Assembly: GCA_020859945.1 (NCBI GenBank) | Contig: JAJBVG010000073.1 | Coordinates: 23,770 to 87,769, forward strand | Source: Clostridiales bacterium | GTDB taxonomy: Bacteria > Bacillota > Clostridia > Oscillospirales > Oscillospiraceae | Reading direction: 5' to 3' | Length of the DNA stretch: 64,000 nucleotides | Shown: positions 1,383 through 63,344 of the stretch, piece by piece | Position numbering within the stretch: the first letter of the stretch is position 1 | How the letters are laid out: each line of letters begins with the position of its first letter | The notes under the pieces: model-generated | The model's database searches: none | What the model saw: only the letters and a program-made list of their open reading frames with translations | What the model was told of the DNA's origin: nothing | Made by a program: the position numbers and the translations under genes

Positions 1383-1411
1383 TTGATTTTTCATAGCCGA
1401 TTGTGTATAAT
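1383..1411 (+). promoter_or_regulatory. Sigma-A type promoter TTGATT-17-TATAAT driving a small RNA
   Basis: TTGATT 1383-1388, 17-nt spacer, TATAAT 1406-1411. Confidence 0.7.
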
Positions 1412-1417
1412 AAAAAC

Positions 1418-1521
1418 GTGGAAACCCGGACGGTTGCCACAACTGATACTAGCTTAGCATTTTAGGAAATCCTAAAACTGTGAGCCGTCTGGTTGCAGCA
1501 GACGGCTCACTTGCTTTTTTT
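1418..1521 (+). ncRNA. Putative antisense small RNA (type I antitoxin candidate)
   Basis: Promoter at 1383-1411, no ORF, ends in 12-bp hairpin (1480-1491/1499-1510) plus TTGCTTTTTTT; overlaps the 3' end of the toxin ORF on the other strand. Confidence 0.65.
1480..1521 (+). terminator. Intrinsic terminator GTGAGCCGTCTG-loop-CAGACGGCTCAC + T tract; stem also lies at the toxin mRNA 3' end
   Basis: Perfect 12-bp stem, 7-nt loop, T-rich tail. Confidence 0.85.
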
Positions 1522-1599
1522 CGCAGCCAAATAGCTTATCAGTTCGATCACGAAGCTCGCAATCGCCAATAAGGTTTGGATGATCTCTAAAGCAAACAA
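1507..1599 (-). CDS. Putative holin-like toxin small ORF, 30 aa: (M/L)FALEIIQTLLAIASFVIELISYLAAKKSK
   Basis: TTG start at 1599 preceded by AAGGGG with 8-nt spacing; single hydrophobic helix with basic KKSK tail; not in the ORF track because of length and TTG start. Confidence 0.65.
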   Translation of the reverse strand: MFALEIIQTLLAIASFVIELISYLAAKKSK

Positions 1600-18563: not shown

Positions 18564-19727
18564 ATGAAAAAGCTCATCGCGCTGTTTATGGCCATGGCTA
18601 TGGTGTTCTCCCTGGCCGCCTGCGGCAGCAGCTCCAGCAGCTCTGACGCCGACACCACCAGCGACACCAGCGCCGCCGCGGACGCCACCGCCACCAACAC
18701 CGACTACCGTGTGGCCATGATCACCGACTACGGCGACATCACCGACCAGTCCTTCAACCAGACCACCTACGAGGCCTGCAAGGAGTACTGCGCCGACAAC
18801 GGCCTGGACTTCATCTACTACAAGCCCGACTCCGACTCCGACGCTGACCGTGTCGCCATGGTCGAGAAGGCCGTCGACGAGGGTTACAACGTGGTCGTGA
18901 TGCCCGGCTACGCCTTCGCCCCCACCATCGAAGCCACCGCTGAGGACTATTCCGACATCACCTTCATCGCCCTGGACGTCAGCTCCAGCGACTTCAGCGA
19001 AGGCTATGAGCTGCCCTCCAACGTCTACTGCGCTGTTTACCAGGAAGAGCTGGCCGGTTACATGGCCGGTGTCGCCGCTGTCAAGCTGGGCTACACCCAT
19101 CTGGGCTTCCTGGGCGGCATGGCTGTCCCCGCTGTTATCCGCTATGGCTATGGCTTCGTGCTGGGCGCTGACGCCGCCGCTGCCGAGCTGGGCACCGACG
19201 TGACCGTCGAGTATGTCTACGGCAACCAGTTCTCCGGCGACTCCGACATCACCGCTTACATGGACAGCTGGTATCAGAACCTGGGCGTCGAAGTGGTCTT
19301 TGCCTGCGGCGGCTCCATCTACACCTCCGCCTGTGAATCCGCCGCCAAGGTGGACGGCAAGGTCATCGGCGTGGACACCGACCAGGCTGAGCTGATCGAC
19401 GGCACCTACGGCGAGGGCATGACCGTTACCTCCGCCATGAAGGGCCTGGCCACCACCGTTAAGGATATGCTGGACGAGGTCGTGGCCGGCAACTTCGCTG
19501 AGTACGGCGGCCAGATCGCCACTCTGGGCCTGGTCTCCGGCGACGACGTGGAAGCCAACTATGTCCAGCTCCCCACCGCCTCCACTCAGTGGGCCGACGG
19601 CTTCACCGAGGACGACTATGCGGCCCTGGTCAGCGATATGTATGACGGCACCATCACCGTCTCCAACGACACCACCACCGAGCCTGAGGTCTCCATCACC
19701 GTCAACTACTACGGCAACGTCAAGTAA
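18564..19727 (+). CDS. BMP-family ABC transporter substrate-binding lipoprotein (nucleoside type)
   Basis: Lipobox SLAAC; VAMITDYGDITDQSFNQTTYEACKEYC; GFLGGMAVPAVIRYGYGF. Confidence 0.9.
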   Translation: MKKLIALFMAMAMVFSLAACGSSSSSSDADTTSDTSAAADATATNTDYRVAMITDYGDITDQSFNQTTYEACKEYCADNGLDFIYYKPDSDSDADRVAMVEKAVDEGYNVVVMPGYAFAPTIEATAEDYSDITFIALDVSSSDFSEGYELPSNVYCAVYQEELAGYMAGVAAVKLGYTHLGFLGGMAVPAVIRYGYGFVLGADAAAAELGTDVTVEYVYGNQFSGDSDITAYMDSWYQNLGVEVVFACGGSIYTSACESAAKVDGKVIGVDTDQAELIDGTYGEGMTVTSAMKGLATTVKDMLDEVVAGNFAEYGGQIATLGLVSGDDVEANYVQLPTASTQWADGFTEDDYAALVSDMYDGTITVSNDTTTEPEVSITVNYYGNVK

Positions 19728-19894: not shown

Positions 19895-19959
19895 GAAAGA
19901 CAACAACCGGGTTAAGGCCCGAAGAATCATGAGGAAGCTCTGCTTCAATGGCCTTGGAT

Positions 19960-20085
19960 GGCTGGGCGAGCAGATTTTGTGCAAATCGAGGCGCAGAATC
20001 GCAGGAATACTTTGTGTATTTCAAGATTCTGCAACGAAGAGTTGCGCGAAATATGCCGTCCAGACGCCGAGAGTTATTGAATCAG
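19960..20085 (+). repeat. Structured repeat copy 1 (conserved hairpin 19993-20032) in the ABC transporter leader
   Basis: Homologous to reverse strand of 63183-63344; hairpin GCAGAATC-GCAGG-AATAC-TTTGT-GTATT-TCAA-GATTCTGC. Confidence 0.7.
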
Positions 20086-20119
20086 AGGTTCCTACTAAAA
20101 AAGAGGGAGGTCGAAAGCT

Positions 20120-21661
20120 TTGGAACAGCCATATGCCATTGAAATGCTCCACATCACCAAGCGTTTTCCGGGCATCATCGCCAACGATGACATCACGCTC
20201 CAGCTGAGAAAGGGCGAGATCCACGCGCTGCTTGGCGAAAACGGCGCGGGGAAATCCACCCTGATGAGCGTCCTGTTCGGCTTGTACCAGGCGGAGGAAG
20301 GCATTATCAAAAAGGACGGCAAGGAGGTCCAAATCAAGGACCCCAACGACGCCAACGATTTGGGCATCGGCATGGTGCATCAGCACTTTAAGCTGGTGGA
20401 ATGTTTCTCCGTACTGGACAACATCATTTTGGGCGTGGAGCCAACCACCAAGGGCGGCGTGCTGCAAAAGGCCGAGGCGCGAAAGAAAATCATCGCCCTG
20501 TCCGACAAATACGGCCTGAAAGTGGACCCCGACGCCATGGTCGAGGACATCACCGTGGGTATGCAGCAGCGCACCGAGATCATGAAAATGCTCTACCGGG
20601 ACAACGAGATCCTCATCTTCGACGAGCCGACGGCGGTGCTGACGCCCCAGGAGATCGAAGAGCTGATGCAGATCATGCGCAACCTGGCCGCCGAGGGCAA
20701 GAGCATCCTGTTCATCTCTCACAAGCTCAACGAAATCATGGAGGTGGCCGACCGCTGCACCGTCCTGCGCAAGGGCAAGTACATCGGCACCATCGACATC
20801 GCCAACACCACCCGGGAGGAGCTGTCCCGCATGATGGTGGGCCGTGACGTGGAGTTCGTGGTGCAGAAGGACGAGGCCAAGCCCGGCGACGTGATTTTGG
20901 ACGTGCAGGGCCTGACCGTTGCCTCCAAAGCCCACAGCAACAACGCCGTCAAGAACGTCTCCTTCCAGGTCCATGCGGGCGAAATCGTCTGCATCGCCGG
21001 TATCGACGGCAACGGCCAGACCGAGCTGGTCTACGGCCTGACCGGTCTGGAGCCGGTCAGCTCCGGCACCGTCAAGCTGGAGGGGCAGGACATCACCCAC
21101 GCCCCCATCCGCAAACGCTCCACCATGGGCATGAGCCACATCCCCGAGGACCGGCACAAGCACGGTTTGGTGCTGGACTACTCTCTGGAGTACAACATGG
21201 TCCTCCAGCGGTACTTCGAGCCGGAGTTCGTCAGCAAGGCGGGCTTCCTGAAACAGGGGGCCATCCGCAGCTACGCCGAGCGGCTCATTGGCGAATATGA
21301 CGTGCGCAGCGGCCAGGGCCCCATCACCATCGCCCGCAGCATGTCCGGCGGCAACCAGCAGAAGGCCATCATCGCCCGGGAGATCGACAAGGACCCCGAG
21401 CTGTTGATCGCCGTCCAGCCCACCCGCGGCCTGGACGTGGGCGCCATCGAGTACATCCACAAGCAGATCGTCGCCACCCGGGACGCCGGAAAGGGCGTGC
21501 TGCTGGTCAGCCTGGAGCTGGACGAGGTCATGTCCCTGTCGGACCGCATCCTGGTCATGTACGAGGGCGAAATCGTCGGCGAGCTGAACCCCAAGACCAC
21601 CACCGTGGAAGAGATGGGCCTGTACATGGCCGGCGCAAAGAGGGGGGCGACAAGCGCATGA
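20120..21661 (+). CDS. Nucleoside/simple-sugar type ABC transporter ATP-binding protein (two ABC domains)
   Basis: GENGAGKSTLMSVLFGLYQ; second domain GIDGNGQTELVYGLTG; SGGNQQKAIIAREI. Confidence 0.9.
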   Translation: MEQPYAIEMLHITKRFPGIIANDDITLQLRKGEIHALLGENGAGKSTLMSVLFGLYQAEEGIIKKDGKEVQIKDPNDANDLGIGMVHQHFKLVECFSVLDNIILGVEPTTKGGVLQKAEARKKIIALSDKYGLKVDPDAMVEDITVGMQQRTEIMKMLYRDNEILIFDEPTAVLTPQEIEELMQIMRNLAAEGKSILFISHKLNEIMEVADRCTVLRKGKYIGTIDIANTTREELSRMMVGRDVEFVVQKDEAKPGDVILDVQGLTVASKAHSNNAVKNVSFQVHAGEIVCIAGIDGNGQTELVYGLTGLEPVSSGTVKLEGQDITHAPIRKRSTMGMSHIPEDRHKHGLVLDYSLEYNMVLQRYFEPEFVSKAGFLKQGAIRSYAERLIGEYDVRSGQGPITIARSMSGGNQQKAIIAREIDKDPELLIAVQPTRGLDVGAIEYIHKQIVATRDAGKGVLLVSLELDEVMSLSDRILVMYEGEIVGELNPKTTTVEEMGLYMAGAKRGATSA

Positions 21662-30477: not shown

Positions 30478-30620
30478 CAAAAAAACTGTTCCATCAGGCG
30501 GAACAGTTCAGGAAAGAAGCTATCCTCATCTTTCGATCATTAACCGCCGGAATTGGCACCTTGCCGCAAGGCAGGTTGCCGGGCTTCACAGGGCCGTACC
30601 CTCCACCACTCTTGATAAGG
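30478..30620 (-). promoter_or_regulatory. SAM-I (S-box) riboswitch with terminator, upstream of metK
   Basis: Reverse strand CTTATCAAGAGTGGTGGAGGGTACGGCCCTGTGAAGCCCGGCAACC...GGTGCCAATTCC...GAAAGATGAGGA then GGAACAG terminator hairpin + T7. Confidence 0.95.
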
Positions 30621-30638
30621 CTGTTTGGTTGTGTTCTT

Positions 30639-61340: not shown

Positions 61341-62258
61341 ATGATAGATTTCAAACGTCCGCAATTGGCGGACAAAACGTGGATCGACCCCATCTTCCGC
61401 GCCTCCGGCTTCCGCAGCTGCGAATACACCTTCCCTAACCTGATGGCCTGGGCGGAGGCATTCAGCGAGACAGTGGCCCTGGTGGACGGCTTTGTGGTGG
61501 TTCATGTGGGCACAGACGAGGGAGGCTACGGCTGGGCCGCCGGTTCCGGCGACCGCAAAGCCCTGCTCCGCACCCTGGCCCAAGACGCGGCGGAACGGGG
61601 CCGCTCGCTCCGGCTGCTGGGTCTGACCGAAGAACAAACCCAGGAACTGGAAGCCCTGTTTCTCGGGAAATTCACCTTTACCAACTACCGAAACGCAGCG
61701 GACTACTGTTACACCGTGGACAAGCTGGCTGACCTGGCGGGGAAAAAGCTCCACGCCAAGCGCAACCACATTCACCGGTTCGTGGAGAACTACCCGGACT
61801 GGCGGGTGGCGGAGATCACCCCGGAGAATCTGGACCAGTGCGTGGCCCTGGCCCGGGACTGGGAACAGGCCCAGGCAGAGGCCGGACTGGACGACTGGAA
61901 CGAGCAGGAGGGCGAAGCTGCCCTTCACCTCTGCATCCAGCACTATGAGGCGCTGGAGCTGGAGGGCCTGCTTCTTTACGGGGAGGGCAAACCCCTGGCC
62001 TTCACCATGGGGCGGAGCATCGGCGGGGACACCTACGACGTGATTTTTGAGAAGTCCTACGCCGACATCCAGGGGGCCTACGCCATGATCAACCGGGAGT
62101 TCGCCCGTTGGATTCGGGACCACCACCCGGAAATCGTCTACCTGAACCGGGAGGACGACATGGGAGAGCCGGGACTGCGGAAGGCCAAGCTCTCCTACCG
62201 CCCGGACCTGATGGTGGAAAAGCATCTGGCCTGTCTGAAACCGGGGGAGACCCTGTGA
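61341..62258 (+). CDS. DUF2156 domain-containing protein (phosphatidylglycerol lysyltransferase C-terminal-like GNAT fold)
   Basis: WIDPIFRASGFRSCEYTFPNLMAW; LHAKRNHIHRFVENYPDW; NREDDMGEPGLRKAKLSYRP. Confidence 0.9.
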   Translation: MIDFKRPQLADKTWIDPIFRASGFRSCEYTFPNLMAWAEAFSETVALVDGFVVVHVGTDEGGYGWAAGSGDRKALLRTLAQDAAERGRSLRLLGLTEEQTQELEALFLGKFTFTNYRNAADYCYTVDKLADLAGKKLHAKRNHIHRFVENYPDWRVAEITPENLDQCVALARDWEQAQAEAGLDDWNEQEGEAALHLCIQHYEALELEGLLLYGEGKPLAFTMGRSIGGDTYDVIFEKSYADIQGAYAMINREFARWIRDHHPEIVYLNREDDMGEPGLRKAKLSYRPDLMVEKHLACLKPGETL

Positions 62259-63085
62259 CCGGCCTGTGCCGCCCCTCCCGCCGGGAGGAGGTCTCCCAAC
62301 TGGCCCGTCTGTGGAAGATTTGCTTTGGGGACACCGACGACTATATCGCCCACTACTTTTCCACTTACTACCGCCCGGACCGTGCGCTGGTGCTGGAGGA
62401 CGGGGGCAAACTCCGCTCCATGCTGCTGACCTTCCCCAACGTCCTGGTGACGGGGGAGGGGAAGGAAGTCCCAGCTTGTTATATTTACGCCTTTTGCACC
62501 GCGCCGGAGGCCCAGAGCCAGGGCTATGGCCGCCGCCTGCTGGCCTGGGCGGAGGAACAGGCCGCCCGTCAGGGTATCCAGCTGGCGGTGATGGTCCCCG
62601 GCGAGGCCAGTTTGTTCGATTTTTACGAGACGTTGGGCTACCGGACCGTATTTTTCCACCGGGAGCAGATTTTTACCCAAACCGGACCGGCAGACTGCAT
62701 CCCGGTCCCCTGCGATGGGGCGGCCTACGCCGCCCGGCGGGAGGCGCTGTTGGAGGGGACATTCCACATGGCCTATCCCTCGGAGGTGCTGGAGTATCAG
62801 CGCTCCCTGTGCCGCCGGACGGGGGGCGACCTCTTCCTGTGGGAGGACGGCCTCGCAGCCGTGGAGACCGACGGGGCGACCCTGTACTGCAAGGAGTTGC
62901 TGACGGCTCATCCCCAGGAGGCGGTCAACGCCCTGCTGTCCTGTTTCGGCATGAACCGCGCCGTGGTCCGCACCCCGGCGGAGTCCAAGGACGGCGCAAA
63001 GGGCTTCGCCGTGGCAAAATCCCTCGTCCCCGGTGGAGACGGGCAGGCGACATCAACCGGATATCTGGCCTTTGCCTTTGACTGA
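62255..63085 (+). CDS. GNAT family N-acetyltransferase
   Basis: GTG start overlapping previous stop; CYIYAFCTAPEAQSQGYGRRLLAWAEEQAARQG. Confidence 0.85.
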   Translation: MTGLCRPSRREEVSQLARLWKICFGDTDDYIAHYFSTYYRPDRALVLEDGGKLRSMLLTFPNVLVTGEGKEVPACYIYAFCTAPEAQSQGYGRRLLAWAEEQAARQGIQLAVMVPGEASLFDFYETLGYRTVFFHREQIFTQTGPADCIPVPCDGAAYAARREALLEGTFHMAYPSEVLEYQRSLCRRTGGDLFLWEDGLAAVETDGATLYCKELLTAHPQEAVNALLSCFGMNRAVVRTPAESKDGAKGFAVAKSLVPGGDGQATSTGYLAFAFD

Positions 63086-63182: not shown

Positions 63183-63344
63183 GGGCAACACCGCATAATT
63201 AGTGCTTCGGCGTCTTGCGGTAAATTTCCGCCATAACTGCGTTGCAAAAACTTGAAATCCACAAAGGATTCCTGCGTTTTTGCGCCTTGTTCTGACGAAA
63301 ATTTTCTACGCAATCCACTCTTGCCGAATTATACGGTGCCGCCC
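63183..63344. mobile_element. MITE-like element with imperfect 20-bp terminal inverted repeats, carrying structured repeat copy 2 (minus orientation)
   Basis: Left GGGCAACACCGCATAATTAG vs right revcomp GGGCGGCACCGTATAATTCG; internal hairpin 63244-63283. Confidence 0.7.

Follow-up and report, generated by a model that had tools for sequence, protein, structure and literature searches.

Each of the two similar hairpins in the window analysed here, a stretch of 64,000 nt from a Clostridiales bacterium, is the apex of a non-autonomous transposon that resembles MITEs and has ends of the IS5 type (Table 1). Taken together, our results make it probable that this element represents a superfamily of structured, MITE-like transposons of the Clostridia, whose single-strand folding is under selection as they propagate. 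A first-pass annotation had described both hairpins, letter for letter as they stand in the DNA, and had read them as a new structural motif under selection for its fold. Compensatory changes over about 100 divergent copies, together with a strand-specific bias, strongly support the view that the folded element is under selection. The hairpin is, however, no stand-alone RNA motif but lies within a MITE-like mobile element that has terminal inverted repeats (TIRs) and target duplications. The evidence consequently points between the two alternatives considered in that annotation, a selected RNA or a DNA-level hairpin of a mobile element, namely to a mobile element for which the fold of a single strand is important.

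Table 1. Positions of the two element copies, their parts and the adjacent genes in the window.
Feature	Position	Strand	Remarks
Bmp/PnrA-like ABC substrate-binding protein gene, before copy 1	18564..19727	+	Pfam PF02608, E 3.7e-32
Copy 1, whole element, type A ends	19932..20093	+	One long imperfect hairpin; model R1 138.5 bits, E 9.9e-35
Copy 1, ends	19932..20093	+	Fixed by alignment of 27 genomic copies
Copy 1, left TIR: GGAAGCTCTGCTTCAAT	19933..19949	+	Pairs with 20076-20092; identical ends in sister copies
Copy 1, hairpin of the first-pass annotation	19993..20032	+	Upper part of the element
Copy 1, 3x2 loop below apical stem	GCA 20001-20003 / AA 20023-20024	+	
Copy 1, apical stem-loop GGAATAC-TTTGT-GTATTTC	20004..20022	+	RNAfold: in 48-50/50 aligned members; co-varies in distant members too
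Copy 1, right TIR: ATTGAATCAGAGGTTCC	20076..20092	+	Pairs with 19933-19949
ABC transporter ATPase gene, after copy 1	20120..21661	+	Pfam PF00005, E 2.8e-44
GNAT acetyltransferase gene, beside copy 2	62108..63085	+	Pfam PF13527, E 7.2e-20
Copy 2, whole element, type B ends	63183..63344	-	Model R1 152.6 bits, E 1.2e-38
Copy 2, hairpin of the first-pass annotation	63244..63283	-	

All three base pairs that differ between the two window copies are compensatory, as had been claimed: G-C/A-U and U-A/A-U in the outer helix and A-U/C-G in the apical stem. The hairpin is also beyond chance, since a loose apex pattern matches twice in the window compared to 0 matches expected from shuffles. In the whole genome, the apex pattern occurs 27 times (0 with a reversed control), and alignment of these 27 copies with their flanks yielded two repeat types, type A (GGAAGCTCTGATTAAAT...ATTTAATCAGAGGTTCC), which includes window copy 1, and type B (GGGCGGCACCGCATAATTCGG...TAATTGTGCGGTGTTGCCC), which includes copy 2. 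Each type is about 160 bp long and palindromic along its full length, and the TIRs measure 17-26 bp. The element is short, dispersed in multiple copies and devoid of a gene or a conserved reading frame. RNAfold predictions for 20 diverse relatives gave a common architecture in nearly all of them, i.e., one long hairpin in which the TIRs form the basal stem, followed towards the tip by a middle stem, the small and asymmetric loop AAGG/AACG, a stem of about 8 bp, the 3x2 loop GCA/AA and an apical stem of 7 bp that is closed by a loop of 5 nt; exceptions are the truncated copy L150, which differs, and L157, which folds otherwise above the middle stem. The apical hairpin drawn in the first-pass annotation is real, but its stem is better described as 7 bp (GGAATAC/GTATTTC) with one G.U on top of the 3x2 loop, and the flanks reported as conserved are the lower parts of one and the same hairpin.

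Fold z-scores of window copies 1 and 2 are -9.3 and -9.2, respectively, and an intact target duplication was found neither at copy 1 (flanks ATGA / TACT) nor at copy 2. The ABC transporter ATPase gene starts 27 nt past the end of copy 1, and the GNAT acetyltransferase gene is oriented opposite to copy 2. Elsewhere in the window, at 30523-30621 (-), lies a SAM riboswitch (RF00162, 82.9 bits).

Several copies carry additional sequence. An insert of about 38 nt with two hairpins (GGAGCGC..., then a CCC-CTTGA-GGG hairpin) occupies one constant apical-stem position in elements of types A and B (L034, L102, L115, L122, L390-L393 and L016), with a relative at a second position in L016 and L102, and could represent a smaller mobile unit residing within the element. 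Longer structured inserts (TCGTCGCCGCAAGCTCC...GGTTGGGTACCC or GCTGCGACTCGCATGGCC...) in place of part of the left arm were seen in L005, L233, L392 and L393 (left arm) and in L099, L117 and L391 (type B), and in L173 the apical stem-loop is tandemly duplicated around 1400-1532 (-) (CAGGAATACTTTGTGTATTT twice).

In GTDB genomes, the apex pattern was present in at least 118 stretches, those listed belonging to Oscillospiraceae, Ruminococcaceae and other Clostridia, with carriers including Faecalibacterium sp. I4-1-79 and Pseudoflavonifractor sp. 524-17. The covariance-model search proposed in the first-pass annotation was run with model R1 (match threshold E <= 0.001) and gave matches in 77 of 199 genomes and 46 of 111 genera of the order, in 62 of 292 genomes of the class and in 7 of 300 of a phylum sample, four of the latter outside the own order. 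In about 50 of the 77 genomes of the order, the match attains 1e-10. At the same loci, the antisense of strong members scored 30-43 bits compared to 113-142 bits in sense, and the weakest R1 matches are consequently to be taken with caution. In some genera the match is limited to a 109-nt core (model 26-135), which indicates that elements can have a different or a shorter basal stem. Many copies comprising solely this core, with other or shorter ends, were observed in G038, G089 and G107 (family f4).

Target duplications were scored with the ends anchored, the expectation being derived from mismatched pairing. Exact 4-bp direct repeats with the consensus YTAR flank 19 of 39 type A copies (2.6 expected), and direct repeats were found for 6 of 16 type B copies (1.8 expected). 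The YTAR duplications go with GG.. ends, and GAG-type ends show 3-bp TNA repeats in a few copies (four of type F, two of them exact). Among the subgroups of the IS5 family, YTAR is the target of the IS5 group and TNA that of IS1031-like groups. The end types held in common with IS5-family-like insertion sequences are GGCCTTGTTTGA and AGAACCTGTATTCACAA. A search for PF13340 transposases in the 199 genomes of the order and a further search in 19 selected genomes revealed IS5-family-like elements of about 850 bp (DUF4096 plus DDE), whose TIRs equal MITE ends at 15-17 of 18 positions, the best of 100 shuffled controls reaching 13-14 of 18. The TIRs of L266, L256, L252 and L250 match the MITE ends of L160, L169 and L197, and those of L261 match the ends of L045, L123 and L188; L266 and L250 display a two-ORF layout, and the L261 copy has decayed.

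For types A and B, the two types present in the window, we found no autonomous partner and, among the fetched loci, no full-length IS with such ends. The own genome yielded no PF01609, PF05598 or PF13340 transposase in a 99.5%-complete MAG, a kind of assembly that may lose multicopy IS. Across the 199 genomes, presence of the element did not track that of PF13340 (p 0.78), and the covariance model did not match an element core inside the DUF4096 IS loci. The only transposase locus matching the model is L246 (G031:C182), where the element adjoins a truncated DUF772 (IS5/IS1182-type) transposase fragment.

More than ten unrelated end sequences carry one common interior, and the hairpin with its fixed internal loops is kept over about 100 divergent copies. 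In an alignment of 50 members (A1), standard pairs account for 79.3% of cells, compared to 60.0% after shuffling and 37-48% with slid partners. Both sides change in 64 of 71 pairs, and the covariation test that had been suggested gave 675 double-change cells versus 255 (sd 12) in shuffled data. The apical stem is nearly invariant near home, yet co-varies in distant members, e.g., as GCAATAC/GTATTGC (L285), GCCATAC/GTATGGC (L287) or GGAATAG/CTATTTC (L302), and one apical G.U is kept in 48 of the 50 aligned members.

Moreover, the mismatches are distributed unequally between the strands. G.U exceeds A.C by 181 to 23 in a structure-blind alignment of the arms, by 124 to 34 in the fixed columns of A1 and by 301 to 72 in 102 model-aligned members, the counts not being phylogenetically independent. 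Per pair, 39 lean to G.U and 3 to A.C (sign test 6e-9, on the same non-independent members); G.A likewise outnumbers C.T (181:42), and G.G is favoured over C.C. In a DNA palindrome, each of the mismatches G.T and A.C is the other on the opposite strand, and their inequality therefore argues against a DNA palindrome alone. In all 62 full-length elements, the more stable fold is that of the top strand, with RNA as well as DNA parameters, the median difference from the bottom strand being 23 and 9.7 kcal/mol, respectively; since both energy sets favour the top strand, the excess of G.U over A.C is compatible with RNA and with single-stranded DNA. Among close copies, singletons amount to 14 G.U and 11 A.C (p 0.008 versus the deep ratio, in a small recent sample). 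Individual copies hence appear to drift while lineages that are still spreading keep the fold, and the missing deep G.U bias in recent singletons argues for selection acting on the propagation of the element itself rather than on any use that the host makes of each copy.

The orientation relative to tandem flanking genes is unbiased (29 co-oriented, 37 opposite; p 0.39), which leaves host cis-regulation in one orientation unsupported. Random orientation had been proposed as a sign of a mobile-element hairpin at the DNA level; this part holds, and the fold is nonetheless selected on one strand. Apart from ABC ATPases, no recurrent neighbour protein family was apparent once the element's own translations were set aside.

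For a superfamily selected during its own propagation, we consider the following scenario the most probable. IS5-family transposases, supplied in trans, would cut at the element ends, and the spreading copies would be those whose single-stranded top strand folds into the full hairpin with the loops GCA/AA and AAGG/AACG. The fold would act in cis, most likely in DNA that becomes single-stranded during replication, where it could join both ends in one duplex or bind a host or transposase factor. That the folded top strand is single-stranded DNA rather than a host regulatory RNA is our preference and not a result; it is based on the lineage-level selection, the random orientation and the lack of a conserved transcription unit. 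A further-reaching version, which we put forward tentatively, is a class-wide transposon family in which a single-strand hairpin of about 160 nt, with variable stems, fixed loops and one strand used, is essential for mobility and is kept while the ends are exchanged between IS5-type transposases.

Alternatively, the top strand could be transcribed, with an RNA hairpin of about 160 nt doing the work, for example in RNase III processing, in shielding of host transcripts or as a trans-acting RNA aiding the element. Such a structured RNA would agree with G.U as the commonest mismatch, the apical G.U kept in 48 of 50 members and the very stable predicted RNA fold (z about -9), and passages of a MITE review describe stable hairpin transcripts and the cutting of Correia MITEs by RNase III (PMC10969869). 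However, the unbiased orientation to genes (29:37) and the missing strand bias of recent copies speak against this reading, and the preference for G.A and G.G over C.T and C.C fits single-stranded DNA as well, so that we regard it as possible but rather doubtful. No Rfam family scored above the gathering threshold for the element, the window copies or distant members.

A strand-specific hairpin lacking orientation bias and featuring compensatory changes would also be expected of a REPIN-like element (PMC3116915), whose folded top strand would be the substrate on which a Y1 transposase (IS200/IS605 or RAYT) acts to move it. Across the 199 genomes, co-occurrence with Y1 transposases is weak and not informative (36 observed, about 29 expected; p 0.05), and neither the own genome nor the element carriers G113, G195, G217, G038 and G041 yielded a Y1 transposase (PF01797) match. 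As the target duplications and the TIRs common to IS5-type elements point to a DDE enzyme, we consider such a mechanism improbable. Even less credible is neutral decay, in which pairing would be inherited from a perfect palindrome: MITE ends are palindromic by nature, but both sides change in 64 of 71 pairs, the internal loops are fixed across the class and the 4:1 ratio of G.U to A.C is confined to the deep comparison. A small conserved protein, suggested by an apex reading QEYFVYFK in one frame and by similar residues in the loop variants EYWMYFK and EYLPYFK, can practically be dismissed, given that all frames contain stops (2.4-3.5 per 100 codons) and that any one frame is open in at most 18 of 62 elements.

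MITEs usually count as passive remnants that are recognised by their ends. In the present case, the ends are exchangeable, and what persists in dozens of families of gut and rumen Clostridia is the interior fold. Should movement require the fold, this would constitute DDE-type mobility dependent on a folded single strand, which is not usually described; should the fold work as RNA, a structured RNA that is very common in gut bacteria would have been overlooked. Under either reading, the covariance model is usable for annotating hundreds of loci. We found no description of the element in the literature covered, a scope that excluded subscription journals, preprints and ISfinder, and the searched passages of the MITE review mention neither a conserved core nor such a family (PMC10969869).

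Like bacterial IS-derived MITEs with IS5-type ends, the element is short, gene-free, dispersed and presumably mobilised in trans, with TIRs and target duplications. Known MITEs, however, have ends in common with one IS, whereas here it is the interior fold that is conserved over more than ten end types and many families, the ends being exchanged. REPINs and their RAYTs offer a further parallel as mobile hairpins with compensatory changes and suspected selection on the folded strand (PMC3116915), but the element differs from them in its size of about 160 nt, its TIRs and target duplications and in that its host yielded no Y1/RAYT transposase. Correia elements (NEMIS) and ERIC are likewise repeated, imperfectly palindromic, intergenic sequences of 100-160 bp with a stable RNA hairpin. 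These are lineage-restricted families, whereas the element described here spans the Oscillospirales and other Clostridia and displays strand-specific covariation. Integron attC sites, finally, share the variable sequence, the conserved single-strand fold and the use of one strand; attC sites conserve the base of the stem, whereas our element conserves the apex and internal loops and varies at its base.
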